From positions 45,542,711 through 45,606,710 of the forward strand of contig OZ038391.1 in the NCBI GenBank assembly GCA_964036045.1: a stretch of DNA of 64,000 nucleotides, written 5' to 3'. Below, piece by piece: positions 10,601 to 64,000 of the stretch (position 1 is its first letter; every line of letters starts with the position of its first letter). The DNA is from Eutreptiella sp. 'Long Island Sound 2002' (Eukaryota > Euglenozoa > Euglenophyceae > Eutreptiales > Eutreptiaceae). Position numbers and translations under genes: made by a program. Under the pieces are notes generated by a model that saw only the letters and a program-made list of their open reading frames with translations, was not told the DNA's origin and did no database searches.

Positions 10601-10645
10601 ATACAAGGACCGGGCCCGGCCACCCCCCTGTGCCCTAGAGACCCA

Positions 10646-10745
10646 CGTTAAATCCAACATGTTAAATTTTCAATTCTAATTTTTGAAAGGTGTTAAATGT
10701 TAAACCGATAAATTGTAACATGTTAAACGAGAATACCTAGTAGTT
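10646..10745. promoter_or_regulatory. Element A left AT-rich motif cluster
   Basis: Several copies of GTTAAA(T)-type words, including CATGTTAAATTT and GTTAAATGTTAAAC, lie just inside the left TIR. Related words recur in the intron (about 11,690-11,765) and inside the right end (13,440-13,575), but not in the coding exons. Binding by the element's transposase is inferred from this placement. Confidence 0.5.
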
Positions 10746-10953
10746 TCTAGATTTTAAAGCATTTGCGCCGTTAATTGCATGCGTATGCTACGGTCTTGAG
10801 GAGGTTTAATGTGGTAGAATGTTGCCCAATGGGTTTGCAGAGATGTCGGATTGCCTAAGGGTTGGGTGTCCAACCCTTAGTCCTCTTCTTTGTGCCCACC
10901 ACCAACCCCACTCCATACCCCCTTTTCTCTTGTGTAGCACTTCTTATGCCTTT

Positions 10954-13102
10954 CCCTCGAGACACTATTCTCGAGCTTCGCATGACGCTTGTGCGCTTGA
11001 GTGGAGCCAAGAGTTTGCAGGATCCTTTGGTCTCCCAACTCCTTGGTGAGTGGGTGGCTTCATCTCCCTTGGCCTGAGCCTGATGGTCGGAGGCCACGGA
11101 CGTTGGCTACCCCTCCCTTATTCATACCAAGCAAGTGGAGGCGGTGAAACAATACGCCTCCTCCCTTTTTCCCACGCCCGAGTTTATTGGGGACCTCAAT
11201 GTCACAAAGACGGGGTTCCACCACCTCTCCGAGTTCATGACCCGGCGAGGAATTGACTATACGGCCGCTACGGGCATCCCAACGCGGCAAGCCTTGTTGG
11301 ACACGTGGAAGGATATGGCTAAGCCGCTAGAGTTGCGGCCCCCCGTGAACGTGGACGACCCACCCGCTAGTGGCCGCAGTTGGCCTATGCACGCATGGGC
11401 CAGCTACATTCAATCCCGTCCACCACTAGTAGACACCATTGATTGGGACCGGCCCCTCACGTTTATTGTGCACGGGGATGCCTACCCATGTGCGGGTGGG
11501 AGTTGGACGCGATTGTCTATTGGGCTCCTCAACCACGGCAAACAGGGCCGCACAGTCGCCTACTTGTGGGTCATTGGGATGGCCGTGTGCGGCGACAAAG
11601 ACATAGCCGCTTTGGCCACTATTTGGGCCGAGAACCTTCAGGTACTTGGCGCTTTTGTGTCGCATTGAATTCGGGCTCGCTTCGTTTCAAAATTCCTCGT
11701 TTAAAAGCGAAAAATTGTTTAAAATTTAAGCCACACGAGATTTGAAGCTAAAATTTAAACATGCCCGGATATCAATGCGCGCACTCTTTTGTAGGTGTTG
11801 CAGTCAATTCACGACTACAAAAGTTTCTGATGGGCATCCCGTTGGGTGCCTGCTGTGCTGGTCCTTGGGAGTGACCAGCCGTTTATTCGCCGCCTCATTG
11901 GGGTGTCCATATCACCCCAATTGGGGTCTATTTACATTATGGGGGTGTGGGACAAAGCGGCGGCGGCGTGGTTGCGGGTGGACGTGCGCCCGACTTTGGA
12001 CAACGAGGCGCCCGCCCGTCACCAATATCAAGTGATGGGTCGGAGCTTGGATAATGGGGGGTGCATAGCGGAACCTCACATCGTGGTTGACCGGTGTTGG
12101 GCTTTCCTATGCATCCTCCATTGTTGCATGGCCATTGGGCGGCTGCAAGTCGCTTTTGTTGAGGCGCGCCTGGAGTCACTTCCCAAGAAGAATGCGGAGG
12201 CCGTGCAACGGTTGTTGTACCGGGCACGCACGGGGGTGAAGCGGGGTGCCACCGCCGCACCCGATGGGGAGAAGGCTAGGGCCCTCTTCCTTGCATGGGA
12301 GGAGATGGGCCCACTATTGACCTACGCACCGGAGGACCCCGAATGGCAAGCCGTTGTTGCCATGAGGGATCTACTTGGGGACTTGTACAGCGACACACCC
12401 CCTCTCAATGACCTAGGGGCGTCTGCTATCACGCGGCAGTACCGTGCACATTACTGCAAGGCCGCCTGCCAGTCCAACTAGCTCCTCTACCTGGAGGAGG
12501 ATGTGACCACGGCGGTGGCTGATGCAGCACGTTTGGGGGTGGGGCCGGGGGCCGTGTGTGCGGATGTGGTAGAAAGCCTAAATGCCATTTTAAAACGGGC
12601 CTACAACGATCACACGGCCCGGGGGGGGGGGGGGGGGGCGATCGATGTCGAGTCGGACTCGGACAACGAGTCCGACAACCCTGCCTCTTGCTCTTCGTCA
12701 CCCTCCGGCGAGGACACCCCCCCCCCGAATAAGAAACCCCCCCCAAAGTCAAAGGCCGTCCCCGCCCCAAGAAAAGAAGGGGTGGGAGAAGAAGGCGGAG
12801 GGGGGTGGGAAAGAAGTGGGGGGGGGGGGGGGAGAAAGAGGAAGGGGGGGGGGGGCAATCCCCTCGTGGGATCCGCCGCCCACGTCCCGTACGGGGGCGG
12901 GGTAGAGGTGGGCACCGTCACCGGTGTCCACACCCGCAAGAGCGGGGTTGTTCGGGTGAGATACCCAAACAACCCCAAGCTCTCGGAGGTGGAGCGCCAC
13001 CTCATCTTCGGCACGGCCGAAGCTGCAGAGGCGCACCTCCAAAAGGTGCGCAAGGGCAAGACGCCCACCACCAACCCCGTTTGGAGTCGTGTGGTGTGCT
13101 AG
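10954..13102 (+). pseudogene. Element A transposase-like gene, stop-riddled
   Basis: Two exons (10,954-11,641 and 11,795-13,102) are separated by a GT-AG intron. The intron position matches exactly that of the homologous gene in element B (after AENLQ here, EDNIK there). Conserved blocks include FIVHGDAYPCAGGSW, a likely first acidic residue of an RNase H-like core, CILHCCMAIGRLQ and VVESLNAILKRAYN, a likely catalytic Glu. The protein ends with a Lys/Pro/acidic linker and a small domain (VVRVRYPNNPKL) that looks SH3/Tudor-like. In-frame stops lie at about 11,075 (TGA), 11,081 (TGA), in the first codons of exon 2 (TGA) and 12,479 (TAG), where B has sense codons at equal spacing. The family is not one I can name; the catalytic assignment is inference. 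Confidence 0.75.
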
Positions 13103-13439
13103 TCACAAGAGCAAGCACACGTCAGCACAAAAAAATCCTCATCAGTGGTACCATAGGCGCCTTTCGGTCTAGAAGGAGAGCCAACCCCCCCCCCCCCCTC
13201 CTACGAAGCCGGCTACCCCCCGACTAACCCCCAAGAAAACCCTCAACCCAACCCAAATACCCCCACTAACCCACCTAACCCCCCAAGCGACACCCAAGCT
13301 ACCCCGGCACTATGGGACACGGATACGGGCTCCCGAGAGGTGTAACACGGCAACAATGGCCGGAATGGCCAAGCACACGAGCCGTGAAGGCTAATAGGTA
13401 TGTTCTATGTGTTGTTGTGCTTGTGTAGGGAGGTTTCAC

Positions 13440-13575
13440 TTTTGAAAACTTTGTTTAAATTTGTTGGTTTAAATTTTAATCCCGGCGACGCATAATATTT
13501 AAAATTTACAAATTCTAAACCAAAAATTAATCTCAAATTTTAAAGCCGAGAGCCATTTTAATATTTTTACACATC
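13440..13575. promoter_or_regulatory. Element A right AT-rich motif cluster
   Basis: GTTTAAATTTG, TTTAAATTTTAA, ATTTAAAATTTAC and CAAATTTTAAA words are packed into about 135 bp. They mirror the left cluster and the intron, in a gene otherwise of high GC. Confidence 0.5.
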
Positions 13576-13793
13576 AAGACAGGTGAACCCCCCCCCAAAC
13601 CAAGCGGTAAAATGGTTGACAAACACACAAGGCACCCCGTAGGTGGTTGACAAACACACAGGGCACCCCGTAGGGATGAAAAATTTCCCAAGCGACGCCC
13701 CTAACCCCCCGCAAAAAGTGCATACTTCGGTTTAATCAATTAATTTTTGGCCAAAAATTAAATATATTGGATTTAATTTGGGTCTCTAGGGTG

Positions 13794-17341: not shown

Positions 17342-18749
17342 CTAGACTCGGTCAATCCGCCCGTCTGCATGCACTCTCTGTATCATCGCCGCCAGCTTGA
17401 TGTCTCTGCTGGCCCTCTGCTCCGTTGCGCCCTCGTGCGCCTCCGCCCAGTTGCAGGGCCTGAGCCTGTCCCACATCTCGCGCCGTACCTGCACTTTACC
17501 AGCCAGCCCAAGGCCTCTGCTCGCCGTCTCCACGGTCAACGTGCCCATGTCTAGGTTGCCATCCTGGTCCCCTGTCGGGCTTATGTCCCCTGTCAGGGAC
17601 ACATCCCATGGCTCCATCTCGTCGTCCCACATGGCCTGCAGCACCTTGACGTCATTTTCCTCGGCCGTGCTCTGCCTGTCCTCGTCGTCGCTCCGCTCCC
17701 GTACGAACACCGCCAGGTCTCGTAGAAGGCCGTGGATCGTCTTGGCCCTCCCCTTCTTGCTGGCCAGCTTCTCTGCCACCGCCAGCGTGAGGGCTGCCAC
17801 GTCTGTCCGTGGCCCCCTTTGCATTTTGTCCGGTGCATTGCAGGTGCACGGGGCACCAGAGCTAGAACCGGTTCCCCCTCTGAGGCGCGGTGACCACGTA
17901 TCCCTAGTGTGGGGCCCCGTCCTCCTCAGGCCCTCCGGGCACATCCACGTCGATGTACATCCGTCCGCTCGTCTCCCCGGCCTCTGCTGCTCGACGTCTT
18001 TCTTAGGCCACGCAAACCGCCCACCTTCACGGAAGCATAGGTGGCAGACCAGCATCTTCCTCTGGTGCTGGTGCCAGCACCAAATGGGGGGGTCTGTGGG
18101 CTCATTTTGATGGTGTCTTATTGTAGGCACAAAAACAGGGCCTTTTTGGGGGGTCTCAAACACGTTTCTTTCATTTTCATCTATTGAGCCTAGTTCCCAT
18201 TTCCTGGATTGAAGGTGTGATATCGGAGGAAAAGCACATGTAGGGCTTATTGCACCATGTAAACAGGAAGCTGTAAAATCACGCTGTTCTGGACCCCCCC
18301 TCAACTGTGGACACGAACAAGCACGCTGACACAGTGTCTCTATTTCCACATTGGGAACTTCGAATCGTATGCTTTGTAATACACTAGTAGTATCATATGC
18401 ACATACACAACCATACATAGGAGTCACCGCTGCGAAGTATATGCAAAATTCACCTGTAAATTGTTGTACCTGAAAGACAGGGCTGTTTACATGAAAATCC
18501 AGCTGAGCAGCTGGGGCCAGCACCAACACCTGGAAAAATGGCAATGAAGACAAGCAATTGGGCAAAGAGTAGCTGGTGCCAGCACTTCCTGAGGAAAACA
18601 AAGAAATAGTAGGTGCAAACCAAGCAGAGGTATTGTGAGTGCTGTGTAACAACAAAACCAACGGACAAGTGCATGATTGTGCAAGACGAACACTGACAGC
18701 GCTGTAGTGCAAAGCACTGGACCAGTCTTTATGGGATCAAGAAACATGA

Positions 18750-20198
18750 TTACTTCTTTGCTGCAGCAGCCCTGTTGATCCGGGCAGTCCAATTGGTAAA
18801 TCCAAGTCGTTTGGGTTTCACAGTGTCAGCAGGATCACCAGCGGCGCCTTCACTGTTGGACTTCTCCCCGCCAGTCGCAGACTGCTGTGCCCCATTGCTC
18901 GTAGCCTTCCCTGGAGTTGCACGTTTCGAACTACTGCTCTCCTCATCCTGCTTCCGCTTGGCACCGGTTTTTTTGGGCTTCGGCTTTTGGGCCAACGGCT
19001 CTGCTTCATGCTCGGCCACTTCCTCTCCACCCTCATCCTCGTCCCCCTGTTCCACGTCCTCAAGCTTGCGGAATTTTCCCCTGCAATCAATGGGTACCCC
19101 ATGGAGCATCTGATTTGTCACCCCAGTCCAGTCAATATTCGGCAGGCCATCAGCTTCCTTGCATCCAGCAACAGCATGTGTGACAAAGTCCTGAATTGCC
19201 GTATCCCCAAGGATACCAACCACCACATTGACAGGAATATGAAATCGAACTGTGAGGGCCCCGGGCAATGCGTGGGAGGAGGACAATAGCAGCAGCCATA
19301 TTTCTTGGTACACCACCATTTCACCAGCCAGTGTCAGCAAGTAACCAACAATCTCCACGGGCAGGTACCCCCCACTTGGGAAATCCGTCACAGTAATGTA
19401 TCGAGGCACCTTAAAGGGGGGAAAAAAGCAATTCTTCAATGAAAGGAGCTGGCCCCAGCTGCAACGAGGTGAAACGACCATTTTGTTGTGATTTTTGAGC
19501 GCGTGTCCGAACAACCAGGGTCGCAGTGTGGTCTAGATACCTTTTGTGGCAGCGGATGTTTCGAGAGAAGATTCACTTCAGTACACCCCATAGTAAATTG
19601 TGGTGACTTCTTGTTGAGGTGGTACACTGACAGCTTAATAGCACAGAACCCCGTATCTTGGTGCTGTTCACGAAGACTGTCCACAATGCCACGACAATCA
19701 CCAGGCTCACCGGCAACAACAACAAGAACGCCACGCTGCAGCACTGTACTGACCAATGCATGGATGCCCAGGGTAAAGCCACGGGGGGGCTCAATGTACA
19801 CCATTGTAAAAGAGATACCAGCCACTGCTGCTGGGATGGCCGAGCCAATTGCAGCTGGCAGCACCAGTAGTTTTCCGTCCGAGTCCCCTTCCAACTGCAA
19901 CACATTCATGTTCCAAGTGAAGTTCCGAGTGAAGGCCAAGCAGTGACGTCAGTGAATCGCTTTGCAACCGGGGTAGCACACAGACCTGTGAATTCTCCTC
20001 AGTGGCACCCATGTGCAGGTCGACGGTGAAGAAATTGTCCTGATTCGCCTGGACGGTTGGTAACACCAGTGGTTTCGACAAAGATTCTCGCAGACCAACA
20101 TAGCTGACATCCTTCCAAATCGGCGCACTGACAACGTATTTCCACGGTGGAAAAGGGTCCTCTTCTGTCCAACGCCACGTGTATGTCTTGAAATACAA
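18750..20198 (-). CDS. Element D downstream exons, basic-tailed protein
   Basis: Exons near 20,198-19,950 (YTWRWTEEDPFPPW), 19,900-19,500 (hydrophobic; VLVVVAGEPGDCRGIVDSL) and 19,410-18,750 align block by block with element E (47.4-46.1 kb). Best conserved is the stretch VPRYITVTDFPSGGYLPVEI to EIWLLLLSSSHALPGA, followed by an acidic then lysine-rich tail ending AARINRAAAAKK-like. The palindrome at 19,447-19,460 lies between two of these exons. Splice sites are not proven. The protein is unknown to me; a basic tail with paired acidic stretch suggests DNA or chromatin contact, which is inference. Confidence 0.55.
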
Positions 20199-20382
20199 GT
20201 CACTTCGGCTTGCCAGGAGGGATTCACACTTTTCTCGTTCACCCAGTCCACCTTAGCAATCATAGTACAAACTTTGAGACCCCAGTGTTTGCAGGCACCA
20301 AAACGGCATTTCCGAACGATGTGTGCTGGCCCCAGCACCTCTCACAACAAATTGCAATCGAACAGCCACCGCAGATGCATCC

Positions 20383-22084
20383 TTATGGGAGGGCAAACAT
20401 ACGGCGAGATTCATGGATGAGATTGTTCTCAGGATGACACAGATGCCAACTCCATAACCGATCCAGTTTCAATCGCTTTCCCATCTTCTTGAGCTGTGCT
20501 CCACCATTGGCCGTGTCAGCCATAAACTTGCAGATTGTCCGGATATCGGGGGGCACCTGTCCTTCAAAGCAACGCATTTGATTCACAGTCATGCTATGAC
20601 CGCGGGCCTCCAGCATCTGCACTGCAAACGCTGCTTCACGTCCACAAGTACTCACCAACAGAGCCACAGGAGACCACTGCTTTATCATATTGGCCTACAA
20701 GGGGTACCACAGGATTCACACCGGGCAACAGATGGCGGAGTACGGTGATAGGGCGATGAAACCACGAACAAACGGACGTGCTGACGGGCAGGCACACACC
20801 AGTGTGCCATCTTGAGCGCTGAATCCACCCTTCACCCACAAATTCGTCAGGTGCTCTCTGGCAGTCAAGTTCCCCTCGGTATCCCTTTCGTATTCCACCA
20901 CCAGTCGCTGAACTCTCTCACACAAAGTTGGTGCTCGTGCTGTCTGGTTGGCTTGACTGATTCCTGCCAGGGACTCACGAATGGTCAACGGGGTCTCAGG
21001 CCGCACAACAGTCGCCAAGAAATGGGAACACCATCGGGGAGGGGGCAAGTTTCGCTTCTCCAGCTCCAGTTTCACGCGCCGAGCAGCCTCCACTATGTGC
21101 TGGCCAGACAGTATCCAGTAGATCCCACCTGATATTGCACCCGGTCACAAATGATCAATTCATATCAATTATTAGGGGCATGGGGCGCCGGGTGTGCCAC
21201 TGTATGTCCTGGATCTCTTGTAGAATGTGTAGCAAATCAAGGATCCCACCGGTAGTCAAATCGGTCAACAACAGTGGCCGGAATTGTAGTGACCTAACGT
21301 TGTCCCGTTTAATATCGAGGGGAACACGAATAAACTCAGGCTCCGCATCAAGCGAAACCCGTGTAACATCGTTCAAGGAGCGAAGTGCAGTAGCAGTGGA
21401 ATGCACAGCTGAGTCCAGCTGTCCCAACACGGTTACCAAAGACGGATGCCCAGGGAAGGGACATAGGTCTGTAGTGTGCAACATTGCAAACACTGTCAGG
21501 TTCATGCTGGGATTGGGATGCTCTGGGTCAGTAGTAGACCTCTTCCACCACCAGTTATCAAACCACATAGCCATTTGGTGGTTTGACATGGACGACCACA
21601 GTTGTTGTGCAGCCGAGGTAGCCTTGGCAGTTAGTGGTACAGGGCGATTGGTAACAACACCACAGTTTGCTAAAACACGGCGAACACCCTGCGTCAAAGG
21701 TTGACCTGTAAGTGTGTCTTTCCGTGATACCTTACTAGTTGGACGTGCAGCCTTGTGCAGGACAGACCATAGCATATATAACTGTTTCGTGAAAACGGAC
21801 AACCAACGAGGCTTCCTATTTTGCTTACTTGCAACAACAATTTGAGGTACAGTCTTACGAGTACGACGGTTGCAGCGGACCTGTGCCAATAGGTGCACTA
21901 ACATCAGAACCCCCGGCTCGCCAGCATGGGCATCACGTAATAAAGAAGACCCATTTGAATAATGTCCAGTACGTAGTAGATGCCGAACAACGGAGTAGGA
22001 AAATTTCATTACAAAAGTCTGGTGATGCAAGTAAAAGACACGATGCACATGGTGGCAAAACACAGCACACTCCCTATCCTTCAA
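20383..22084 (-). CDS. Element D transposase-like core
   Basis: Blocks shared with element E, in the same order: IWSVLHK-like start (here LWSVLHKAARPTSK), MWFDNWWWKRST, NLTVFAMLHT, PFPGHPSLVTVL, VPLDIKRDNVRS, LLLTDLTTGG and PLIIDMN (22,084-21,155). These are followed by a region with VVEYERDTEGNLTAREHL (21,093-20,716) and LDRLWSWHLCHPENNLIH (20,688-20,383). The invariant WFDN and PLDIKRDN could supply catalytic acids, but this is inference. A TGA just after IIDMN interrupts the homology with E. An unnamed transposase family, co-inherited with the downstream basic-tailed exons. Confidence 0.65.
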
Positions 22085-22164
22085 TGAGATGCACGTACCT
22101 TATGAAGATAAACATCGGTGGAATGGATATGGGAATGGTACTAACCAGGTTGCTCACTGGAGTT

Positions 22165-22530
22165 GGTGCTGGTGCCAGCACTCATAGTCCGGAACATCAT
22201 CTCAGAGACTCGATTGCATTGAAAGGTGCTGGCACCAGCTACTTTGAGCCAAAGGGGGATTCGAGAAGACCATTTGAGTCAGCAGGTGCTGGCACCCGCA
22301 CCTTTCTGCCAAAGAGAACCAAGGAAAGGTGAAATTGCTTGCAAAGGTGCTGGCCCCAGCTGCTTCAATGATAAACTTGATACCAAAGATACAAAGTAAC
22401 AAGACATGTCCAATACCAGATACGCGGTGACTATAGTAACCAACATGTGCACGATTGAATATCACCAACAAATGTAATTGCGGGACATCCCACAAGTACT
22501 TTTCGTCAAGGAAGGTGCTGGCCCCAGCTG
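22165..22530. promoter_or_regulatory. Element D palindrome cluster
   Basis: Five copies of GGTGCTGGNNCCAGC occur at 22,165-22,182, 22,225-22,240, 22,285-22,302, 22,346-22,362 and 22,514-22,530, at the upstream side of the core gene. Further copies lie at 18,064, 18,509, 18,571, 19,447 and 20,323. None is found in E or F, which are related elements with different palindromes. Confidence 0.75.
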
Positions 22531-23396
22531 CAATCATGGGAAACATACTTTTGAGATCAGCATTTTCAATCATCATGAAGTAGTAGTGTAGAAAGGGTGT
22601 TTTGAACCCCTAACTTCATCGGCCGCGAAAATACACGTTCAAAAAAGGGGAGTTTTTTACACTGCTCTTTTTGGGTATAGAACCGGGCAAAAGTGTGCCA
22701 CGGGGGTGGGCGGTTTGCGTGGCCTAAGTCTTTTGGGGCTTCGTTCCTGCACCGGGTCTCTTTGGTCGGTTCCTCGCTTTCCCAGTGCCGCTCGCCCGGA
22801 TTCACGTACTGTCCATCTGGGGTGAGAGCAATCAGTAGAGCATGACGCTTCACTGGCGGTCCCCTTTGGCTCTGTCCCCGCCTCGTCCCAGCTGGCCTCC
22901 AGCGAGCTGCGGTCTCGTTCACTATCGATGGCTAAGTGTTTGCACTGCGTGCGCACTGCGTGCATACTGCGCACGCAGAGGCTAGGATACTCACCCAAGA
23001 ATACCACTCATCTGTCTAGTAGCACGGCGAAGCAGCAAAGCCCAAATCAGAACAACAAAACTGCCTGCCACCATGATGCACCACGCAACAAAGCGTGGAT
23101 TCAAAGATTGTCCCGGTTTCCTCAATAGCACCGGACGGTTGGGGCCCAATGATTTTTGGAAATGTCGCCCTTGTCTTGCCCTCAAGTATGCACGGATCTT
23201 CAGGTGGCGGTCTCGGCGAATTGGCTACACAGCCCCAGCAGACTCTGCCACAGGGAAGGGGCATTTACACAATTTACATTCCAAAATGGACAAGAATCTA
23301 GGAAATGGTTGACAATTCAAATATGCCACGTCCTAAATGCTTGGGAGGCCAAAAAACCCTTGTACGGAACCAAAAACTTGTCAAAAGGGGCCAAAA

Positions 23397-48081: not shown

Positions 48082-48365
48082 ACTTCCGCAGAGCCACCAG
48101 CAGCATCTCTTTCGCTTTGCCCTTCTGCACTTCAGTCCAAATTCGAGCGGCCACTTGTCCCATACTCAGCTTGCTCACTGAGTGTTGTACCGCATTGTGA
48201 TCGCCTCCAATAATCTCTCAGATGTCAACAGGACAGTCGTGTCTGATCTCCTCACAGTAGACGTGTTGTAACCAGTCTGGCAGTGCCCGTGACTTCTCAC
48301 AGTATTGTCAGTGAAGTCTTTGGAGTGCTGTCAGGATATGAGCCCCGCCCAAGCAGTAGGGAATT

Positions 48366-48818: not shown

Positions 48819-48894
48819 AGCTTAGCAAAGGGGCTAACAAAGGGTCACACAACACACTACAAAAGGCCACAAGGCTGCAAATTGTTGATTTACA

Positions 48895-51375: not shown

Positions 51376-52145
51376 GGTGGCAGCAAGACAACCGGCAATA
51401 TATTTCCAATGAGCAGAGGATGAGTACCAACGTCCGATGATTCATACGTCCTTTGTCAGGTGTTACGCAATGGGAACCATGCAATAGGAGTGAAATACGG
51501 AGTTTTCAATTTTTTGGACACTGCAGTGCCCAAAAGTACTGGAAGTCCATTTTCAAGTGCACATTTGGACAGGAATGGAATTGATTGGGCAAGGTACATG
51601 GTACGTGGCCTTCCGAGTATAACACCGCGGTGCGATGACCCATGGATAACGGGTATGCCAAGGTTTGATGCATGCTGCTGCAGTATGACATCACCTGTGG
51701 AGATGACTACAGAGGTGTACTGGAGAACCCACTGAAAAAAGCCATTTCAAATTTTTGGGCACTGCAGTGCCCAAAAATTTTAAATGATACAATTTTCAGC
51801 CCGGAATAGGGGGTGTATACGTACACCTCTGGAAGCAACAAAAGGCAAGGTTGTTGTATCCCACGATGAAAATCCACGTGGGGTTGGCCGAAAAAATGAT
51901 ATGCTTTTTTTAGGTGCAAAAAACGGATGTTGAAATCGCCATGAATCGTGCCTTTTAGCAACGAAGTCTACGTGCGTATAGAGCCGCCTAAGATATATGA
52001 CCTTGTTGGTGAAACTCAGATAGAAGATAAATGGTACGCGGGTGTTGCAATGAAGGACAGTGCAAATACACAGGGACAGTGCCATATGTCCGTGCAGTCC
52101 AATATAGAGGCTCAAGGGCGCATTTAATGGTTTATAAATGATTGT

Positions 52146-53395
52146 TCATGTCCGATGGAAAACAAAAGCAGAATCCAATATAGTGCACTTCTGGACGAAG
52201 CTGTGTAGTAGGTCATCACACAGCAGTGCAGTGACAGGAAAAAATCTAACGCTGGTTTCAGGCAATTCGGGCACACGTGTCATTATGACAGTGTGTTTCA
52301 CAGTTGTCAAAAAATGTACAGTGTGATAACCCGGTAGACCGGCAGACATTGTCAGGGCAGCAAAGTAAAAATAGAAGCAGCTCTCAAAAAAGCACAACTG
52401 ACAAGTCCTTCCATTCAGCCTACGACTTTGCACTGCGGGTCCTCCGGGAAGCCTGGGGATGGTCACGGCCGGGGCTTTGGGTTTGCGTTTGAGCCACGAA
52501 GCTCCTCGTCCGCCAGACCCCGCATTATTGGCAGCCTCAACCTGTGCTGCAATAGCCTCCTGCTGGGCCTTGTCAATACTGGGTACATCCACCCTAGTCT
52601 CCACGTCCATTTGAGTGAGTGTGGTCTGCTCAGTCTGCCCCTTTGCACGTGTCTTGGCAGTGGTCTTGGACTTCGCCTTCTTGCTCCTTGTTGCCTTCGC
52701 GGGAGCTGGCTTTGCATCGGCACTGACAGCATTGAAAGCACCGTCCACGTCAGTTGGGGGCACATGAACCACAGGATTGACAGCACTGGATGAGGCAGCT
52801 TCAAGACCGACACTTTCACTGTCAACAGTGAAATCTCCTCGGACAGTCCGTTTTTTTGGAGTGGTGGTGGTACGGAATGGGCTATCAAGGAGCCTCGGAT
52901 GTTGGCTTCCTTGCTTGTGTTCAACAACAGCCTTTGCACCATTCTCTTTCCGTGACTTTTTTGGCGCCGCCAACTTATCCTTTTCCCGTTGCTTCGGAAA
53001 CCAACCAAATTCCGCCTCTCGTGATCCAGTTTCTCTGCCGCCTTAGCATCACGTCAAAGGTTCTTGTCAAGCAAGCGTAGTAGCTGCACATTCACTAGCG
53101 TTCTGCCCATCCACAACTCTCCTTTGGCTTGCAAGTTTGCTGCCGGTTTCTGTGCACATGGCTGCACAACCCGCACCAGGTTTCGCTTGATTGAGTTGAT
53201 TCCCACTTTCCATGCATCCGGTACCAAGAGCCTTAACAACCAGCCATGCATACAGGCGATCAACGCTGCTGTCATCCCATATACTTGTGTCGGTTTGCGG
53301 AGGGCGCTGACATCACCACAATTGCCGGCAGCTCTGCTGCACTTTGGGGGCTCAATGGTCGGTACTAATTGACTGAATGTCCCCGCCATAGACAC
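52146..53395 (-). CDS. Element F basic-tailed protein exons
   Basis: The block YGMTAALIACMHGWLLRLLV (near 53,270) resembles YGSTIGLAAAGWLLRVLGIV of E. It is followed at 52,973 by a lysine-rich tail (MAAPKKSRKENGAK; KATRSKKAKSKTTAKTRAK). The F palindrome at 52,814 is translated in frame here as FTVDSE, showing that it can also sit in an open frame. The layout matches the acidic/basic tails of D and E. Confidence 0.5.
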
Positions 53396-55705
53396 TTTCA
53401 GCCGTTAGTTCGAATGTTCGTGTGTTCCGGGCAATTGCAAATGCAAAGTGTCCCCTTCTTGGTTCGGGTGCTCCACTATCTATGTACGTAGCCGAGGTCA
53501 GCTTGCGTTGGCGACCGTTCAGTGGGCGCCGCCCGGGGCTGGTTAGTTGCTGCATTCAAACCCAATACTCAGCCCGCCAAGAGAATAAAGCGTCAATCAA
53601 GGATCGACTGCATTCTACCACTACCCATGTTCCTCAGGCTGCTGATGCATGGCACTCACCCGGCCTTACCCTTGGTCCATGGAAGATTACGGTTTCACAG
53701 GGTAAACACTGGTGGTGGAGTTGAGAGAGAGAGGCATTCAGTAAACAGGGGGGGGCAGAGCCAAAAAAGCGCTGCTGGCCTAGGGGGGGAGAAAGACAGG
53801 AGGAGAAGAGGCATGCTTGTGGCGATTGCCATCAGTCGAGTAGGATCGCCCACCATCCGTACTGCAGCTTGATATTTGTGAGTGATCCCATGTAGCTGTG
53901 CCACTGCCGGAGTCTATACCCCTACTGCCCTGGGAGCTTCCTTGCAGCGGCCATGAGGCAACGGAAACTGGGCTCGCATACGCCCCCGTGTCACAGGCGC
54001 ATGGTCATAACCACATTGTTCAGTGTCCTTGCAGCGGGGAGGGGGCTCCTGAGTCGTTAGCATCAAGTTCATTTTCAGGGAGTGCAAAAAGTTGCTTAGT
54101 GCGCACTTAGTACCACAAGGCCTCGAGCCACCGATCCCAAGAGGCAGCCGAACCACGATGGCCTCCAATCCAAGTTTGTAGCGACGTGTGGCGCGTGCTG
54201 TGCAATACTTCCAGGTGTCACCAAGATAGCGCACGGGGTTCGTGTTGTCGACTGATCAAGCTTTCGGCTTGTGAACAGCAGGTCTTCTCGGGGGGTGTAC
54301 AGCTGGATAGAGGTGTACCGCAATTACCGCAGTGGTGCAGCCTGTTCGAATAGACACGCCAAGGTGCACTTCACATTTGGACCGTACATGATTGTTGGGT
54401 CCCCTTTAGCGGCAAGCTTCTTTCAAAACCCGGGCGGCAGAAGTGATGTCTCACTTCTTTCTGGGACCTCAATGTACAGGAGGTGGGCTTTCGCAAACAC
54501 ATGCTTGTCCATGTCGCCGGTGAGGTGGATCATCCTTAGGGATCCGGCAAAGACAGCAGCACACTCCATCCAGCTCCGATGCACCTCCACCACTACCAGC
54601 TTTAGCCTCCTCGGCCTCCTCAGCACATAGTGCTTCCCGCAGCGACCTTTGTGCGTTAGTACGCAAGGGGACATTCCATAACTTTGCCTTCCGCGAATTA
54701 TCCCATGTCAGTTGACCAGTCCCCAACCGGTACCTTGCTGCCTCCCGGCCTGTCGCTCCCCATGCCCAATGTCTCCTTTTTTTTTTGAGTTCTGCCGCTC
54801 AATGTGTCATTGAGCATACTCGGGAGAACCCCGGAAAACACAACGTCCATTCATGTACAGCACTGGCGCACCCAGAATCTGGGCAGACCATCGGACCTGG
54901 CTTCATACCATCATAACATGCGTTGATCCTTCATATTTTAATGCAATGGGTTTGCCACGCCCCTTGGGCACTCATTTTTGGAGCCAATCCAGTCGTGTGT
55001 AGACAGTGCAAATGTTGTGTGCGTTGTGTGCACTAGATGGGCGGGGAGTCATTGGTGTCTACCTCCAATGCACCTGCATTGGAGCGTGCCACGTCACTCC
55101 AATCTCTGTCTGCTTGAGTTGGATTGTGGAGTTCTTCTTCGCACCGGTGCCATCCGTTTGGAAGCCGAAGCGGGTGCTTGGTGATAAGTTGTTTGACTCG
55201 TGGTTTCTTCGTTCTTTGTGGGCGGTGTCTTCACCTGCATCTTGGGCATCCTTTTGGTGGTGCCAGCGATCGCCCCACATACCATTGCCGAGTTGCAGGT
55301 GGGAATAGCCATTCCTGGCAATCGATATAGAGCATCACCGTAGTTGGTTCACATGCATGCCTTTTCGTCATTTCGGCTGTTTTTTTTGCCGGCACTCCTT
55401 CCCAACTCTCATCGGAGCCGTCACCAGTTCGTACTTCATCACACAGCAAGTGACAAAACGTTGACGGCAGGCTTTCGCAGTGTCACCATTTACTCCTAGA
55501 CTCGTGGCTCGGTGTAGATTGACTCTTATGGGCTCTTCCAAGGTTGTATAGAGCTGATTACACGCATAAGGTTGGTGGACATGAATGGGCTCGCTGACCG
55601 TTCTTCAACAGACATGTCCAACACTTCACTGCGGACATGAAAGGTGGGGAGCGGCCACGCTCAATGCACCAAAACATTGCATTCCGTGTTGGGTGCCGCA
55701 AGATG
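53396..55705 (-). other. Element F interior, exons uncertain
   Basis: Leftward frames at 54,674-54,423 (LKLVVVEVHRSWMECAAVF) and 55,449-55,231 (MLYIDCQEWLFPPATRQW) may be exons of F. A LINE tail sits at 53,952. Nothing else is recognisable; GC content falls towards 55.7 kb. Confidence 0.35.
53952..54037 (-). repeat. LINE 3' tail, copy 3
   Basis: Same CATGAGGCAACGG block as at 3958 but without LINE coding sequence upstream. It is a severely 5'-truncated insertion of about 85 bp, or a SINE using the LINE tail. Confidence 0.8.
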
Positions 55706-55740
55706 TACCCTTCGTGAACGGCCGTTAAGTGGCCGTTTGA

Positions 55741-56052
55741 ATAATTGCGTGAATTTCACGTGAATTTACCCAAATTTTGAGGTTTTTGGGGGAAAATGCC
55801 ATATTCTTGGTTCATTTCAAGGGCTTTGAGGGGCCAAAATTCCTCCCCTAGCTTTGTTACACATCATCCAATGAAAGTCCCGCCCCAAAAGCATGCATCA
55901 TGACCGCACCGTGCCCAAAACGAGAGGTGCCGGAACCCGGCAAGCCTGTAGCCGGTTCACAGCCGTGAATTCACGTGAATTCGTACGAAATTCGTACGAA
56001 TTTCGTACGAATTTCGTACGAATTTCAGGTGAATTCACGTGATTTTACACAA
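55741..56052. promoter_or_regulatory. Element C left subterminal array
   Basis: CGTGAATTTCACGTGAATT words near 55,748 and, at 55,967-56,045, consecutive GAATTCGTACGAAATTCGTA units overlapping each other form a dense palindromic array. The same units recur at the other end only. Confidence 0.8.
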
Positions 56053-56155
56053 ATGTTACCCGTGTGCACCCCCTAATTTGTCCTCACACCCCTAGTAAGC
56101 CCCCAAGCATGCACCCCGGTCAAAGGCAACAATGGTCTGGGTTCGTAAGGTCATC

Positions 56156-57891
56156 TCATGTCCGTCTCTTGCGGCACCGGAACCGCCGCTGTAGAGTCTG
56201 AAGGTGCTGCATGTCGGTTAGAAGCCGTCTTCTTGTGCGGCTTGCATACGTTTGTACACTTATGGGCCCTTGCCCATGTTGAGCCCTTTTGGTCGCATCC
56301 CACCCATGCAACCAAAGGCTATCGTCAATGGTGTGGTTGTCCACAACCACTTGCACCCCTAGTCTCCCCCGGAGGAGGCTTAGGCCCCCGCTGTTGCGCA
56401 ACATGCGCTTCAGCCTCCGGTGACTTCCCTCCATGGCAAAGCAGGAGAACTTTGACAAGATTCTCCACTTCTTTGCAAAATGATACATGTGGTCGATCCA
56501 AAGATGCGTCCACAGAAGTTTGCCCCACTGAAGCTCATTGTGGGCAGCGCCCATGGCTATGCTATGGTTCCGGAGCCGCCCCAAGTCGGCCCCGGAGAAC
56601 CATGCGGAACGCCACGCGTATACACACATGCTTGCAAAACTCTCCCACCACGTTTTGCACACCGACTCCCAACTTTTTCCCCCTACTTGATGCTGCCTGA
56701 CACTAGGCTGCTCTAGGCAAGCATCTATTATCTTCTCCCAACCCCTATGGCGCATGAAATGGATGGCAGCAGCACACTCCATCCTCACCTTCCCCTTGCT
56801 GTTTGCCTTGTCATTATTTAATGAGGCACGGGTGCAAGTTCGTGCAGCAAGCCGTGCCTCATCTAGAACCGGTTGCAGCATATTGCGTGCCACAGTGGCC
56901 GGTGGCCAGTGGCCTGCTCCTCACTCCGCGCGGCGTTGAAAAGGAGCTCAAAATTCTTTGCGACGACTTTTTCGTCGCCGCTGCCCCACGCCTTCATCAC
57001 CTTGTTCCACCCCACCTCACAATCCCGTGCCTCCACAAGCCCCCGAAGCACAATGTAGTCGTTCCCATCAACAAAGTTGAGGGGCGGCTGAGAGGGGCCA
57101 ACCCTGTCGGGGGCGGGGTCAGGGCTGCCCATCACCCCATGAGGGGGGTCGGGAAGGGGTTCGGTGCGGAGGGGGGGTTCACTCGAAATGAAGGGGGGGG
57201 CGCATGAGGCACCACGGTACCATTGCAAAGAAGTTGTGCTATAGAACGTGGGGTGGGTGACGTCGGGGATGTGCACCTGGGGGGGGATGGTGGGATGGAA
57301 AGGGGCGACGCCCAAATCATCCCACCACGGGGGGTTGGCAAGATGCCAAGAAAAGGGGTAAAAAGAGTGGTCTGCTGGTGCACCTGCAGCAAGATCCTGC
57401 AGGCACACCATATCGCAGTGGGGGGGGGTGTGGACGAGGTTAGTGGTGGGGTACACCTGGACGTGGGCGTCCTTAGGCTTCCCCACAGGGTTATTCCTCA
57501 TCGAGTTGAGGAGCTGGTCAACACTGGAGGGGAGAGGGGTTAGATGGAGAAATTTGAGGGTGGGGAGTTGGTGGCGCAGTTCCCTCCACAGGGTTGTGGC
57601 CCATCCCCTCCCCCCGAGGTAGCTGTTGCGGGTGGGGCTGCGCATGTCGATGTGGATGACATCGGGGGAGGGGTCGAGGGAGGCTGCCCAGCCCACGATG
57701 TCATCCACCCCCAGTGCCTCCGACTCGTACGTTGCCTCCTCCAATTGATGGTGGGCAACGGGGAGGGCTTGGTAGTGGGCGAGGGTGTCGGCTGAGGGGT
57801 CGGGGCGCGAGGCCAGGCTTGCGAGTTGAGACATAGTCTGCTGCGACATTGTCAAAAGAGAAGAACGCGAGGGCTTTGAGAGCTGTAACAA
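56156..57891 (-). CDS. Element C transposase-like gene
   Basis: The first frame (57,891-56,863, likely start MSQQTMSQLAS at 57,849) includes VIHIDMRSPTRNSYLGGRGW, DAHVQVYPTTNLVHTPPHCD, FVDGNDYIVLRGLVEARDCE and KVVAKNFELLFNAARSEEQA. The second (to 56,156) continues one frame over: MECAAAIHFMRHRGWEKIID, HFAKKWRILSKFSCFAMEGS, HRRLKRMLRNSGG and a basic end. The frames overlap for about 30 bp near 56,880, so a single-base shift (mutation or programmed) would make one protein of about 560 residues. EGSHRRLKRMLRNSGG resembles the VESLN-x-x-LKRAYN block of A and B and may carry the catalytic Glu; this and the transposase role are inference. Confidence 0.65.
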
Positions 57892-57912
57892 AGCGAAAGA
57901 GTGGAGAGGAGG

Positions 57913-58065
57913 GTAAATTCGTACGAAATTCGTACGAATTTCGTACGAATTCGTACGAAACTCGTGCGAATTTCACATTCTCGTGAATCTGTGAATCTAG
58001 CGTGAATTTTTGCGTGAATTTAGGTGCGTGAATTTCACATTCACGCGAATCTCACCAAATGTGTT
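57913..58065. promoter_or_regulatory. Element C right subterminal array
   Basis: Four to five overlapping AATTCGTACGAAATT units are followed by GTGAATTT-type half sites (GTGAATCTGTGAATC, GCGTGAATTTAG). The array lies directly upstream of the gene's start, so it could also affect its transcription. Confidence 0.8.
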
Positions 58066-58244
58066 AAACCATGCGGGTACTTTAAACCTCTAAATTGCAC
58101 CTATTTGTTGCATCTTACTTTGGGCGAAGGTAGCACGACAAAAGCACACGATGGCACCAAGTTACGAGCAAAACACAGCAAAATTGGGTGAAATTCACGG
58201 TACCGTGAATCTCGGATTCAAACGGCCGGTTCACGAAGGGTACA

Positions 58245-59675
58245 GAATCACAAACTCAACAACTTCCTTCTATTGCGCGTTTCCCGGATACGTTGGATCG
58301 TGCGGAGCATGGTGTTGCTGAGAGCTGCAATACGACAAGCTTGTTTGTTCGTCGGCGGACACACCTTTCGTTGCGCCCAGGCCGGGAGCGGCAGGAGCTG
58401 GTGCTTCAGCGAACTTGTACACGTGTGGTTCCGTACTTTGCAACGGGTCCGAGTATGCAAGAGCATGGTGAAAACGGCAGTAAGGGTAGGAGCGGCATTG
58501 TCATTGATAGCCGCAAACCGGAGTCTTGAGAAATTGTGCTGCATATTGTGTCACAAACGCTAGAACTGTAGGTAGTATGGCAGTAAGCGCTATCGTGGGC
58601 TGCGGAAACACTAGCAGCTGCGCGTTGCAGGGCCTGGAGCTCTATGGCCTGCTACATGAGACAACACGTAGAGAAATGCAAATCCTGGGCTTACAGCCTG
58701 TCTATCCAATTCAGCTACAGGGCAGGCTAGGGTGTGCCAGTCCATTATAAAATGCTGGCATAAAAAAATATTAGACACTGAGTCGCTCCTAATGCCCAAT
58801 ATCTCTCGTCCCATTTCACCGCATTGCACAGCAGCTGCACGGTGGTCTCGGTTCCTGCATTGCAATGAGACACGAAAGGAGCTTCACTGCTAACATCGAA
58901 TCGGTGCAACGTCAAGCAGTGAAATCAAGAAACAACAAATGTGAGTATGTTGCAAGACGGAAACAGGCATACGTTGGCTGGCGTGGATCTCTAGAGTGCT
59001 TGGGCAGAACACATGACTCCGAACGTGATACAGGCACTTCAGGGGTGCGGGCTTCTGTGACACTGCATGAGTTGTAATCGTGGACCCCGGACTTACCACC
59101 CAGTTGACGAACTCCAAAAAGTACGTCCGCGGTAGCTTAGCGGATTCCTTGAAGGCAGCATGACCGAAACACTTCTTCTCGTCAAACGCCGCAACAACCT
59201 GCGTGAACTTGTCACCAACATCCCGTATCATCCGACAGAACTATGCCAGACCCCTCCACTCATTGACAGCCTTGGTACGCTGAGGAGCAAGACAGAGGTA
59301 TTTTCACCGTTCACAGTGAAACTCAGTGGAAACGCGGCCCTGTCAGTGCATATTCACTTTTCACATACGATTGTGTCAATGTCCATATACACCTTGCGTG
59401 GCACCCCAACATCTCTGGCCACTTCCCAAACCTCACCAACATCGGGAGTGGCGTACTTCTGGCCGGTCCTCTTCACGATTTCAGCACAACGTTGTAAAAT
59501 TGCAGCAACCACCTCAGAAAAAGCAGTCTCACAGAATTTCCATAGGGCCCTTTGGGGTGCACAATAAAGGCGGAAATTAATTTTGCACTACTGCAATGCT
59601 ACCATGAGTGATATCATGCTGGCACCTTTTGAATGCGCAGTGCATGGACAACAGACCCACAACAGGCAGGGGCCA
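58245..59675 (-). other. Element F interior with one probable exon
   Basis: A leftward frame at 59,231-58,890 (TQVVAAFDEKKCFGHAAFKE; PRTYFLEFVNWVV then a GT donor-like site) looks like an F exon. The F palindrome at 59,301-59,322 lies just upstream. The rest shows no motif. Confidence 0.35.
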
Positions 59676-59773
59676 TGAGGCAACGGATACTGGGCTCGCA
59701 TACGCCCCCGTGTCACAGGCGCATGGTCATCACCACATAGTTCAGTGTTTTTTCTTGCTGCACTGCAGCGCAA
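59676..59773 (-). repeat. LINE 3' tail, copy 4
   Basis: CATGAGGCAACGG block extending to GCTGCACTGCAGCGCA, the same upstream limit as the LINE 2 tail. Like copy 3 it has no LINE coding sequence attached. Confidence 0.8.
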
Positions 59774-60344
59774 ACTAGTTCTGTACCACCCCAGGTGGCT
59801 GCTGACTGTGCTTTGGACTTGGCCATCTGTACATTGAGGTCAGCTCGCACCCACCACCCTCCCACAGTGCCGGTTAGTCTCTAACCCTTGCTCTGCGGGT
59901 CTTGCTCTTGCTGCACCTGTCTTGCCCTTGCTCTCTGGCACGTGAAGACGTGTCCTTTTCGAACTCCGGGGGCGCAAGGGCGTCTTTACGTTTCACCACC
60001 AGACCTTTCTGATTGACGCTTCAACAGGTGCTTTGCTGTACTGTTGTGCTTACCTGTTCAGTACCACTCCATGTGCGCGCTGGCCGCCCACATTTCCAGG
60101 CCAGCTCGCACCCACCCTCCCGTTGGCCGCACTCTCGCTGCCCCTGTCGTGCTCCGGCATTCTGACACGTCATGACGTGCCATGCCCGTGTCTTGCCCGT
60201 GCTCTGGGGGCGCAAAGGCGTCCCGATGTTTCATCACCAGGCTTTTCAGCTCTTTGCTGCAATGGCTGCCCACACACCCTGGTCAGCTCGAACCCACCAT
60301 CCTCCCACGGTGCCAGTTAGTCCTCGACTCGTGCTGTGCAAGTC
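59774..60344. repeat. Threefold degenerate repeat
   Basis: A unit containing GGTCAGCTCGCACCCACC and GTGCCGGTTAGTC recurs near 59,838, 60,100 and 60,281, with GGGGGCGCAAGGGCGTC near 59,968 and 60,206. No gene is supported. Confidence 0.6.
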
Positions 60345-60570
60345 TCTCTCCCCCTCTCTCCCTCTCTCTCTACCCTGCCCTCTCTACCCTGCCCTCTTTC
60401 TCTCTCTCTCCTTCTCTCTGACCCTCCTCCCACTGTGTCCCACTCTCTCTCTCTCTTTCGCATAAAGGGGTTTTCGGGATGTTCGGTGGATCTCTATCCC
60501 CCCCGGGGTTCGAACCCTCCTCCACAGGACAGAAGAGGTGCGGTATACCCACTAAGCTACGACGATGTGT
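60345..60570 (-). mobile_element. tRNA-derived SINE
   Basis: Read on the minus strand from about 60,570, the sequence has a perfect RNA polymerase III A box (TAGCTTAGTGGG, 60,548-60,559) and B box (GGTTCGAACC, 60,507-60,516), about 30-40 bases apart. It does not fold as a full tRNA: the acceptor and anticodon stems fail. A (GA)n tail follows (60,470 down to 60,345). This is the layout of a tRNA-headed SINE. Confidence 0.7.
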
Positions 60571-60914
60571 GTTCTGCATTGTTGTTCCGACCTGTCCTAC
60601 TCCCCCCTGCATGTCATCCCCAACAGGCAGGGTGAAGGGAGACCAAAAGTGCCATGTACCACGCGCGCAGAATGTTGCACTGGATGGCAGTGTATGCACT
60701 GTCCCCCATATCGGTCCCTTGTTTCCCAGGAGTTTCACTGTCAATAGTGCAAGTGCTCTGTGATTGTATGCTTTTCGTGTAATTATGATCTACGCACCAT
60801 TGCATAATCGTCCTGTTATATGTCCCGGCCTGCTTCACCTTGTATTTCAAAGTGGACAGTGAAAGTCACTCCCTTTACCCCCTCTTGATGGCAATTGCAC
60901 TGGACACACAACCA

Positions 60915-62193
60915 TCAAGAAACCCACGGTAAGTGGACACAACAAACCGCAACCATTGGCAGCATAAAAGATCCATTAGCCACTGTACATCTGTGTTCCG
61001 GAGCATTACCAGCCTTACCTAACCAAGATACATTCTTCGTCACCGCTTTCAGAATCAACATAGCACAACTCTTCCTCACCCAATGCCGTAGCATCAAGGT
61101 TGACATCATTTCCTCGGTCTGACTGAGACCCGTTTTGGTCACCAGTGCCACCTGCTCTTTTGTGTTTCCTGGGTACTTTTTCCCAAATGCGCAGACCCAA
61201 AGCCGTAGCGTCACGTGGTAGCATGCCGCGTAGGCGTGCAGCTCTTCCTGCATAGTCATCAAAAAGGGAAGTGTAATTACGACCACTGGGCGGTTGCTGG
61301 TGCTCGATGATGTGATCAGCCACAACCCGCGATCTGCCGTGTCAGACACCTTACCACAGAGGTAAAAAAGAGTGTAAAGGCTTTGGTGCACGATAATACA
61401 CCCCGAATCAACCAGGCTTGTAAAGTCCATAGAGGCATGTGGAAACTTGAAACTGTGTGGCCAAATGTTGGTACCTATTACACAAGCAACCTTAGGATTA
61501 TCCTACATCTCACCTGTTCTGATATCTATAAATGGGGTGGTGCCTGAGGTCAAAAAATGCAACAGATTCTGCAACCTACCCTCCACCGTTAGGACACATT
61601 CCAATCTTATAATCTTATATATGGGGCTTCTGCTAGAACGTGGTTCCTTGTCGAGCCTTTCTGATGGTGAAAAGCAGGGACTCAGATTGCTCCAGTGTGG
61701 TAGCACTGAGATCATGCTTGGATGCTTTCACAAGACGAGACATCATAGATTCCCCTTTCTCTTCAACACGTGCGGTACCTAGCCATGCATGATGGAAGGA
61801 ACTTCATAGAAGGAGGGCAATGCGGGTCGTGTTCTTGTAGTTGCCGTCACTAAGTGTCGGCTTGATCTTCTGCTGCACAAACAAGCGGCATTCTGAAACC
61901 TTGCATGCCGCAACACCAATGCCCTAGGCTCGATGTCTCCAGCACCAGTCACGCACCATTATCCCTAGCTGCAAGACACTAGAAATATAAGCCTGCAATA
62001 ATTCCAACAGGGCCTCCCAGCGCTCCTTCCATAAGGGAGTTTCACTGTCAACAGTGAAACTCCGAAAGCCAACGTCGTATTGAGACTGCAGTGCGGGATA
62101 CACAAGGTGGCAGGAGAGAATGAGCCTCGCCGGGACAATGAAAGGGGGTACTAGTACACCGTGTGAAAATTGGATCCAATAAGAAGCGGTCAT
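60915..62193 (-). CDS. Element F core exons
   Basis: Blocks at 62,193-61,924 (LLQAYISSVLQLGIMVRDW, resembling YGYIPALFIIGSQVRD of E), 61,715-61,503 (CVLTVEGRLQNLLHFLTSG) and 61,323-61,015. The last has GLRIWEKVPRKHKRAGGTGD, then an acidic tail YVDSESGDEECILVR with stop, comparable with the acidic tail at the same place in E. The F palindrome at 62,040 lies within the first block. Confidence 0.5.
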
Positions 62194-62327
62194 ACTCTAG
62201 GCAAATAAAAAAAGGTGGAAAAACCTTATATAAAGCAGAGACACACGCCTTCTATGCGTGCCAAAACCCATAGACAGGGCATACGTCACGGAGCGCACCG
62301 CGTACTGGGGAAGTAGCATGCTCCCTA

Positions 62328-62580
62328 TTGTACACAACCTTTGCAACCCTCGATCATATGTTCATGGCACAAAGTAATACCTTCACCAGGTTCTGGTTCC
62401 CAAGATTGTCTGGCAATAACCGGACCAACACGTCCCCCAATCCCGCCGTCTTGATGACATTGATGTCCCATAACCCGTACGGCTGCCATGATGAATTCCT
62501 GAGGTTGTTCCAGCGAGTATCCAACGGACAGCGAAGAAGACCAAGGGGCACTCGATCTGATCCCAGGTCCCCCACAACAG
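62328..62580 (-). CDS. Element F transposase block, cut by G3
   Basis: SDRVPLGLLRCPLDTRWNN aligns with the RCPLDIRRDN block of E and the VPLDIKRDN block of D. In F the pair of acids after PLD is changed (TRWNN). The frame ends abruptly where G3 begins, so the gene continues beyond the window. Confidence 0.55.
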
Positions 62581-64000
62581 CACATGGTGCTGGGACGCAC
62601 AGCATAGAAGGTACAAAATGGCAGGAAAATGCTGAGCATATTGCTCAGGATATTTGGGGATGCTCAGCATTCATGCTCAGCAAATGGGACTCATATTGCA
62701 GGGTTCATCTCGGAAGTCCCAGCCAAAATTTCTTCCGAGCTCCCCCGGCACGGTCGGCTGGGAAGCCCATGGAACATTCCTACCAATATCGGTTGCGTTT
62801 TGGGACCCGATCTGGCTGCCAAAACTTCCGAGCATCTTTCCGAGGGATTTCAAAAACTTCCAGGCGTTTTTCCATCGGTTTTTTGTACGATGAACTACAC
62901 CGTTCTTGGTTCCCAAATCCCACACCTCAGCAAAGAAACACACAAAAAGACAAGCATGACCGTTCACTTACGCTTGAAATGTGAACGCTCAGTGGCTTGC
63001 CTGTTCATTTCAGCTTGAACTGTGAATGCTGTACTCTCCTTCGCTGAGCATCTGCACAGGATAGCCATCGCTTGACATGGCATCCACATCCACCACCACA
63101 CGGCGATACTTCTTGGGTTGAGGTTGCGGTTCAGGGTTGTCACTAGATGATGAGGAAGAATCTGAGGCACTTACTGTGGAGGCACCAGATAGGTGCACAG
63201 CATCATCATCCGAATCATTATCCTCAGGACTGCTACTGCTCCCACTATCACCGCTGCTGTGGCTGTTGTTGCTGCTACTGGTACCGTTAATGTGTGTACA
63301 CGCAGCCTCTCTTCAGATTCCTCTGCAAAGGTCCGGTCCGTGTTGTATTTCGGATCCGGACCAACAATGCAGAGGTTTCTGTATTGTACACCGTACGAAG
63401 TCTCATGTTTGCTGGGGCTTGTCTTGCCCACAGCCTCCCGTGTCGTCAAGACAGGGATTGAAAAATGCTTATGCATAAGCACAGCCAGCAAGGTATCCTT
63501 CGGCTGGATGCGGTATGCATCAGGGACGACCCTGTCTAAAAAAAACCCTTAGCATTCTGGGTTCAATGGTCTTTGACGGCTTATGCCGCAGGCACAGTGC
63601 TGCTAGGGCGTGTTGGAGGCGCGATTGTGTATCACCTGGTTCGGGAACTTCGGTATTGGCTGTGTCCGCGTCAATGAGCTCGCCCTCAAGCTCCAAATCT
63701 GGTTCCGGGAGCTGCTGATCGGGCTGGGGGGGCTGAGCGGACGAAGACGAGGCACTAGCGGCACTGCCTTGACTATTAGACATGTCTCTTGCAGGTGACA
63801 AAAAGTGTTCTGGGCACAAAAAGGGAATACATTAGTGAGTCTACTCAAAGGGGCCTAGGTGAGAAAGCGACACACATGCAAAAAGAAAACCACAAAAGCA
63901 GGCACAAAGCTTCACAAGGCACAAAGGGCAAACATTCATCAGCTTGAGTACGGTGTTCTCGATGCAAGTTTGCAGGCAAAGCAGCCACCAAAGATCAAAC
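62581..64000 (-). mobile_element. Transposon G3, internally deleted, right end not seen
   Basis: Begins with the same CACATGGTGCTGGGACGC end as G1 and G2 and shares the deletion junction of G2 (GTACCGTTAATGTGTGTACAC at about 63,282). It lacks B, giving an empty site at about 62,940. It is very similar to G2, indicating a recent common source. Confidence 0.9.
63005..63783 (-). pseudogene. Truncated G gene in G3
   Basis: The first exon starts MSNSQGSAAS at 63,783 and is open through LELEGELIDADTANTEVPEP, but an extra A in an A run near 63,541 shifts the frame after RMLRVF. The 3' exon block (VHLSGASTVSASDSSS, PKKYRRVVVDVDAM) follows after the deletion. Not able to encode the full G protein. 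Confidence 0.65.

Follow-up and report, generated by a model that had tools for sequence, protein, structure and literature searches.

Why should related DNA transposons in one stretch of a genome each carry a short palindrome of their own, repeated both near their ends and within their introns? The question is raised by a 64,000-nucleotide stretch of the genome of Eutreptiella sp. 'Long Island Sound 2002' (C14:45542711-45606710, hereafter the window), in which a preliminary description had distinguished elements A to F and proposed that each has its own repeated palindrome. We found that elements D, E and F carry three distinct palindromes of 18-22 bp, at 10, 9 and 7 sites respectively, and these counts agree with the earlier ones within the mismatch limits given below. 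In our judgement there is about an even chance, by analogy with the VANC proteins of VANDAL transposons, that the palindromes are binding sites for a dimeric protein encoded by the element itself, with a VANC-like layout in an unrelated group of DDE transposons and with anti-silencing as the most likely outcome.

Palindromic words of elements D, E and F

An inverted-repeat search delimited elements A, D, B, E and C. The three elements that carry the argument are as follows.

18002..22728, minus strand: element D, with a 24-bp terminal inverted repeat starting CTTAGG and the 5-bp duplication TCTTT
45461..51992, minus strand: element E, with the 25-bp terminal inverted repeat CTTAGGCGGCTCTATACGCACGTAG and the 5-bp duplication ATATA
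43587..64000, minus strand: element F, old and broken, with E and C sitting inside it as inserts

Both genes of D, a transposase gene and a second gene (gene 2), are on the minus strand. In E the transposase gene lies at about 51211-49085, with a frameshift in the window copy, and gene 2 at about 48821-46141.

The D word, GCTGGNNCCAGC, has the half-site layout GGTGCTGG NN CCAGCACC; the E word, GGGCACTGCAGTGCCC, consists of half-sites TTTGGGCACTG CAGTGCCCAAA with no spacer; and the F word, TTTCACTGTNNACAGTGAAA, has the layout TTTCACTGT NN ACAGTGAAA. Nine of the ten D sites are exact and one, 22288, has a single mismatch; an eleventh match at 21408, also with one mismatch, is exonic and may be due to chance. 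For E, three sites are exact, eight are found at no more than one mismatch, and 47770, at three mismatches, makes the ninth. Two F sites are exact, and seven are found at two mismatches or fewer. A palindrome count that used no motif recovered the words of D, E and C as 3, 5 and 5 identical exact palindromes within their own element, whereas the top recurrence in 100 dinucleotide shuffles per element was 1. By the same count F, which is split by inserts into three pieces, gave one two-copy pair only, and no recurrent palindrome was found in A or B. Two-copy palindromes also occurred in a control stretch (30975-43000), where they arose from duplicated elements. CTG/CAG lies inside the half-sites of D, E and F, and CACTG is common to those of E and F; on the basis of these letters, the families may descend from a common ancestral binding specificity. 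The earlier statement that the words are not shared between related elements thus stands for the whole words and not for these shared cores.

The sites are dispersed through each element, as listed here from the 5′ end of D and then of E.

22168..22528: D, 5′ group of five GCTGGNNCCAGC sites, at 22168, 22228, 22288, 22349 and 22517, the first four 60-61 bp apart
20325..20336: D, gene-2 intron, after the exon ending at 20395
19448..19459: D, intron ahead of the last gene-2 exon
18067..18583: D, 3′ group of three sites, at 18067, 18510 and 18572
51516..51772: E, two sites near the 5′ end, at 51516 and 51757
50162..50177: E, perfect palindrome within transposase coding sequence, reading NLGTAVPN
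48423..48438: E, perfect palindrome within a gene-2 intron inferred at about 48493-48328
47770..47823: E, sites 47808 and 47770, within an inferred gene-2 intron or at its end
47044..47059: E, inferred intron ahead of the last gene-2 exon
45667..46012: E, two sites near the 3′ end, at 45667 and 45997
43903, 45387, 52814, 59302, 60733, 60845 and 62040: the seven F sites

D thus has five sites near its 5′ end, two in gene-2 introns and three near its 3′ end, and E has two near its 5′ end, one in a transposase exon, four in or at gene-2 introns and two near its 3′ end, so that in both elements the words reach introns as well as the inside of the ends, as had been proposed. With exons drawn by hand, without RNA, none of the ten D sites was coding compared with a coding fraction of 0.63 (binomial 5e-5), and one of the nine E sites compared with 0.67 (binomial 9e-4). 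The proposal that the words avoid most exons therefore holds as a shortage in coding DNA. An all-intronic placement was rejected, because E 50162, F 52814 and F 62040 are coding as read. The segment at E 50162 is also present in relatives, which read SPGDIVPSFPK and EPGTAVPSFRK there, and hence the site falls in a stretch that varies. At F 52814 the translation is FTVDSE, within a tail, and in a relative of F (locus L036) the word is present in the corresponding tail; F 62040 lies in a frame that reads as coding. The imperfect E site at 47770-47785 overlaps the 3′ splice site inferred for one gene-2 intron, where the word may supply the splice signal.

The limits of F are less clear than those of D and E. 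Its transposase is broken, being interrupted from about 62578 and resuming past the window end, and the N-terminal part lies at window-equivalent 64650-64153, so F extends beyond the window; its right end is probably at window-equivalent 65178. The left end is uncertain, with no matching duplication, and similarity to L036 begins only at 43757. Copies of another element lie at 35863-40080, 25981-26280 and 62578-64000, one of which interrupts the F transposase. In one copy of this type, an open reading frame at 37154-38398 matches the DNA-binding domain of Tc5-type transposases.

Specificity, other copies and relatives

We examined a contiguous 171 kb, comprising 50 kb of left flank, the window and 57 kb of right flank, and the whole assembly of 2.28 Gb in 2205 contigs. 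In the 171 kb, at the thresholds used, no site of E, F, B, C or G (a further element, described below) was found outside its own element. For the short D word, the count at no more than one mismatch was 9 outside D in 166 kb versus 11 inside its 4.7 kb. Genome-wide exact counts were 866 for E, 943 for F and 234 for D, compared with 0, 13 and 0 for reversed-pattern controls; the words are thus far from equally frequent in unrelated sequence. Among the genome matches listed, many E matches are repeatedly spaced as sites 48423, 50162 and 51757 are, and many D matches are about 2258 bp apart, like 18067 and the intron site 20325. Rfam gave no match at gathering scores, and none of 152 pattern-matching stretches in viral contigs encoded a relative.

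The words are also present in other copies. Exact palindromes guided the choice of loci, those of E for L005-L024 and those of F for L036, so that perfect sites there are conditioned on that choice; of the E sites, the six with mismatches in the window copy are the only ones nearly free of selection bias. Nine further full-length E copies are 95-97% identical and all nine have a 5-bp duplication; the nine E sites are in register in them, except that a deletion in L008 removes most of 45997. A half copy of D (L037, equivalent to 18002-20714), 98.9% identical, has all five sites, one of them with a substitution, and L036, about 80% identical to F where alignable, has 12 sites at three mismatches or fewer in 3.5 kb.

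Two shortened E derivatives of about 3.4 kb (L023 3705-7116 and L024 588-3999) match E solely at their ends, over 622 + 239 and 636 + 239 bp. Their interiors of about 2.5 kb do not match E and hold three extra E-type sites each at no more than two mismatches (L023 4165, 4744 and 6312; L024 1377, 2945 and 3524). By eye, the interiors are inverted-repeat DNA, which gives the derivatives a foldback-like form. Because these derivatives retain only E ends and yet carry extra interior sites, the sites would appear to be wanted, or at least kept, without genes and introns, favouring a role at the DNA level over one in splicing.

Pooled over 20 loci, with gapped cells and repeated positions skipped, the six E sites not used for picking loci had 43 mismatches versus 71.3 expected (Poisson 2e-4); because the loci share ancestry, this shortfall is no more than suggestive of constraint. 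Tested locus by locus, two of nine diverged E loci fell below 0.05 (L016 and L017) and the other seven did not. Between F and L036, 2 of 60 site bases were mismatched versus 274 of 1527, a difference that we do not count as support because L036 was picked through exact F palindromes. One-sided changes in E sites, such as 45667, 47044 and 47808, are kept without a compensating change in all copies shown.

Related elements carry different words in corresponding introns. When the exons of D and E are aligned, each element has its own word in the intron that precedes the final gene-2 exon, at 19448 in D and at 47044 in E. The left flank (L026-L030) holds one further related element, G, with its own palindrome of the TTTACGGC...GCCGTAAA type, at joined positions 22817, 23214, 23238 and 26447 (no more than five mismatches to a 22-mer). 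A gene-2 exon of D matches G at 26341-26207 (E 8e-4), and the G exon at 26688-26479 resembles, as judged by eye, the HPxNxLI exon of D and E; the G palindrome at 26447 lies between these two exons, in the intron that carries 20325 in D. Related families therefore do not share one word, either among D, E and F or between D and G. A search for a G transposase found none, and a gene-2 search returned only P0003. The 57-kb right flank held no further element of the D/E/F/G kind. A candidate there was rejected because it was a long inverted repeat, whose two highly similar arms of several hundred bases or more each lie at 21020-28037 in joined right-flank coordinates, and one in the left flank was rejected as a tandem array. 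The joined right flank also has a tandem array of about 85-bp units at 52064-53822. Another tandem array, of 149-bp units, lies in the window at 32315-33009.

Neighbouring elements and known systems

Elements A, B and C also lie in the window.

10633..13791, plus strand: element A, found by the inverted-repeat search, with a protein related to that of B and an AT-rich intron 1
26348..30974, plus strand: element B, with non-palindromic GTTCCGGCGACGTTCC repeats at 27599-27649 (intron 1), 29180-29293 (second inferred intron) and 30689 (near the 3′ end)
55704..58244, minus strand: element C, with TTCGTACGAA arrays at 55978-56026 and 57915-57974, near the two ends only

The claim of a palindrome in each element does not extend to these relatives A and B. 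The B repeat, described as having at least five sites, has six at no more than one mismatch, but it is not palindromic, its reverse complement having two sites at two mismatches; in A we found no recurrent palindrome, and TTTAAA, the type proposed for it, was only counted, with 11 exact matches across the window. The earlier description, which set the motifs in general in introns and inside the ends, is corrected for C, whose motif lies near its two ends only. Intron 1 has a common position in A and B, and holds B's own repeat in B and AT-rich sequence in A. At 12482, A has an in-frame stop where its relative B reads through, and from this the A copy in the window looks broken. A predicted model of the B-type protein was poor (mean pLDDT 43.4) and was not used.

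The cut-and-paste DNA transposons D, E, F and G form a related group. As read, D and E encode an RNase H-like transposase and a second protein, the RNase H-like fold being that by which DDE transposases are recognized. Candidates for a conserved catalytic acidic triad are D148, D232 and E359, which are invariant in an alignment of 19 transposase sequences, and D282, E485, E486 and E489, which are nearly so. The transposase had no Pfam match, and a PDB sequence search with its profile gave none. The group may belong to a named superfamily beyond those that the fold search listed. CACTA/EnSpm elements have CACTA-type termini, a 3-bp target duplication and subterminal arrays of transposase-binding sites. 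The D and E words resemble these arrays as short words repeated inside the ends and differ in continuing into introns; CACTA-like membership, suggested earlier, was rejected on the CTTAGG...CCTAAG ends and 5-bp duplications (D and E in the window, and nine of nine E copies). Transib elements have a 5-bp target duplication and CACWATG-type termini, of which the first agrees with D and E and the second does not match their CTTAGG ends. Kyakuja-Dileera-Zisupton (KDZ) elements are likewise large multi-gene eukaryotic DNA transposons, algae included (PMC12730594, PMC12477816); membership was rejected because their target duplications are 7-8 bp (PMC12730594) versus 5 bp here. No report recognizable as the D/E/F/G group was found in the available text of the open-licence literature on transposon groups.

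For the layout of the palindromes, the nearest system in the available open-licence text was VANDAL/VANC of Arabidopsis and, for palindromes at ends, Muta1. According to PMC5735166 and PMC10398659, a short motif places VANC21 on non-coding DNA of VANDAL21, both in introns and in intergenic and terminal regions, and the motif of VANC6 is a different one. The likeness covers short family-specific motifs with this non-coding placement, different motifs in related elements, and multi-gene DNA transposons. For D and E we found the same combination of a family-specific word and non-coding placement, introns included; F sites were only counted. The VANC motifs are tandem repeats whereas those of D, E and F are dispersed 18-22 bp palindromes, with four of the D sites spaced 60-61 bp apart, and the word 'palindrome' is absent from those two papers. 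No sign of a protein relationship was found, the gene-2 pieces having been scanned against Pfam only, and we do not claim membership of the VANC family. Demethylation has been demonstrated for VANC, and for D, E, F and G it would be a prediction. Muta1, a Mutator-like element of Aedes aegypti, also has a palindromic motif and repeats at its ends and many non-autonomous copies with foreign interiors (PMC5225508). It differs in its 10-bp terminal palindrome, in repeats that lie within the terminal inverted repeats and in 8-9 bp duplications, and the available part of that paper describes no intron array.

Candidate roles for the palindromes

On the reading that we regard as having an even chance, each palindrome would be bound by a dimeric protein of the family that carries it; the second protein is the more likely candidate and the transposase a possible one. 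Sites at the ends and through the introns would let this protein recognize its own family along the whole element, and the most likely outcome would be that copies escape host silencing, staying open and expressed, in the way that VANC acts for VANDAL; the protein might perhaps also help to pair the element ends. Most sites would be non-coding because coding DNA rarely tolerates the word. The half-sites are symmetric about a spacer of 0 or 2, an arrangement that fits dimeric binding to double-stranded DNA better than hairpin formation in RNA.

Several observations weigh against this reading. The palindromes are not exclusively non-coding, given the three sites that read as coding. E lacks tandem arrays of the VANC kind, its sites being dispersed, and a tandem-repeat search listed no array at D or E sites. 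C, with arrays at its ends only, fits a plain end-binding role. The gene-2 pieces scanned gave no known DNA-binding domain and no Pfam family at cut-off. Across ten full-length E copies the sites were not significantly less variable than other non-coding DNA (permutation fraction 0.25), and the 20 pooled loci, sharing ancestry, are not independent.

The main rival to an anti-silencing role, and an unlikely though serious one, is that the transposase binds the palindromes to assemble the ends, the internal copies being spares with no separate job. Such a role would account for the sites near both ends of D (five and three) and E (two and two), for what L023 and L024 retain from E, which is just the ends with their sites, and for the end arrays of C, which occur without introns. 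It sits poorly with the sites in inferred introns, four of the nine in E and two of the ten in D, each over 1.4 kb away from an end, and with the extra sites inside the interiors of L023 and L024.

It is improbable that the words have no function, having arisen by chance or slippage and spread by duplication and gene conversion in young copies, with selection against coding inserts. The copies are indeed young, at the identities given above for E and for the half copy of D, and constraint was neither significant in the full-length E copies nor frequent among the diverged loci. However, perfect dyads occur at unlinked places with different flanks in D and E, related elements carry different words in the same intron, the word recurs in interior DNA of L023 and L024 that does not match E, and the pooled mismatches fall short of expectation. 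Least probable is that the words act in RNA, as hairpins that aid splicing or as transcript-processing sites: several sites do lie in short inferred introns, one of them overlapping a splice site at 47770, but about half of the sites are outside genes, L023 and L024 carry sites without matching E genes, the one-sided E changes are uncompensated, and no loop separates the E half-sites.

Taken further, binding by an element-encoded dimer could amount to a second self-address system that evolved independently, an idea to which we give a little less than even weight. Each D/E/F/G family would stamp the target of its own dimeric protein through its ends, introns, shortened derivatives and tolerant coding loops, the word would be rewritten in the same intron when families split, and each family would defend or mobilize only its own copies.

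Transposons that label non-coding DNA of their own as a target for sequence-specific anti-silencing are already known from VANC/VANDAL. If the dimer-binding reading is true, a parallel layout in an unrelated group would show that this strategy arises repeatedly, and the dyads, many young copies and shortened derivatives would allow co-evolution between word and protein to be measured from family to family in one host.

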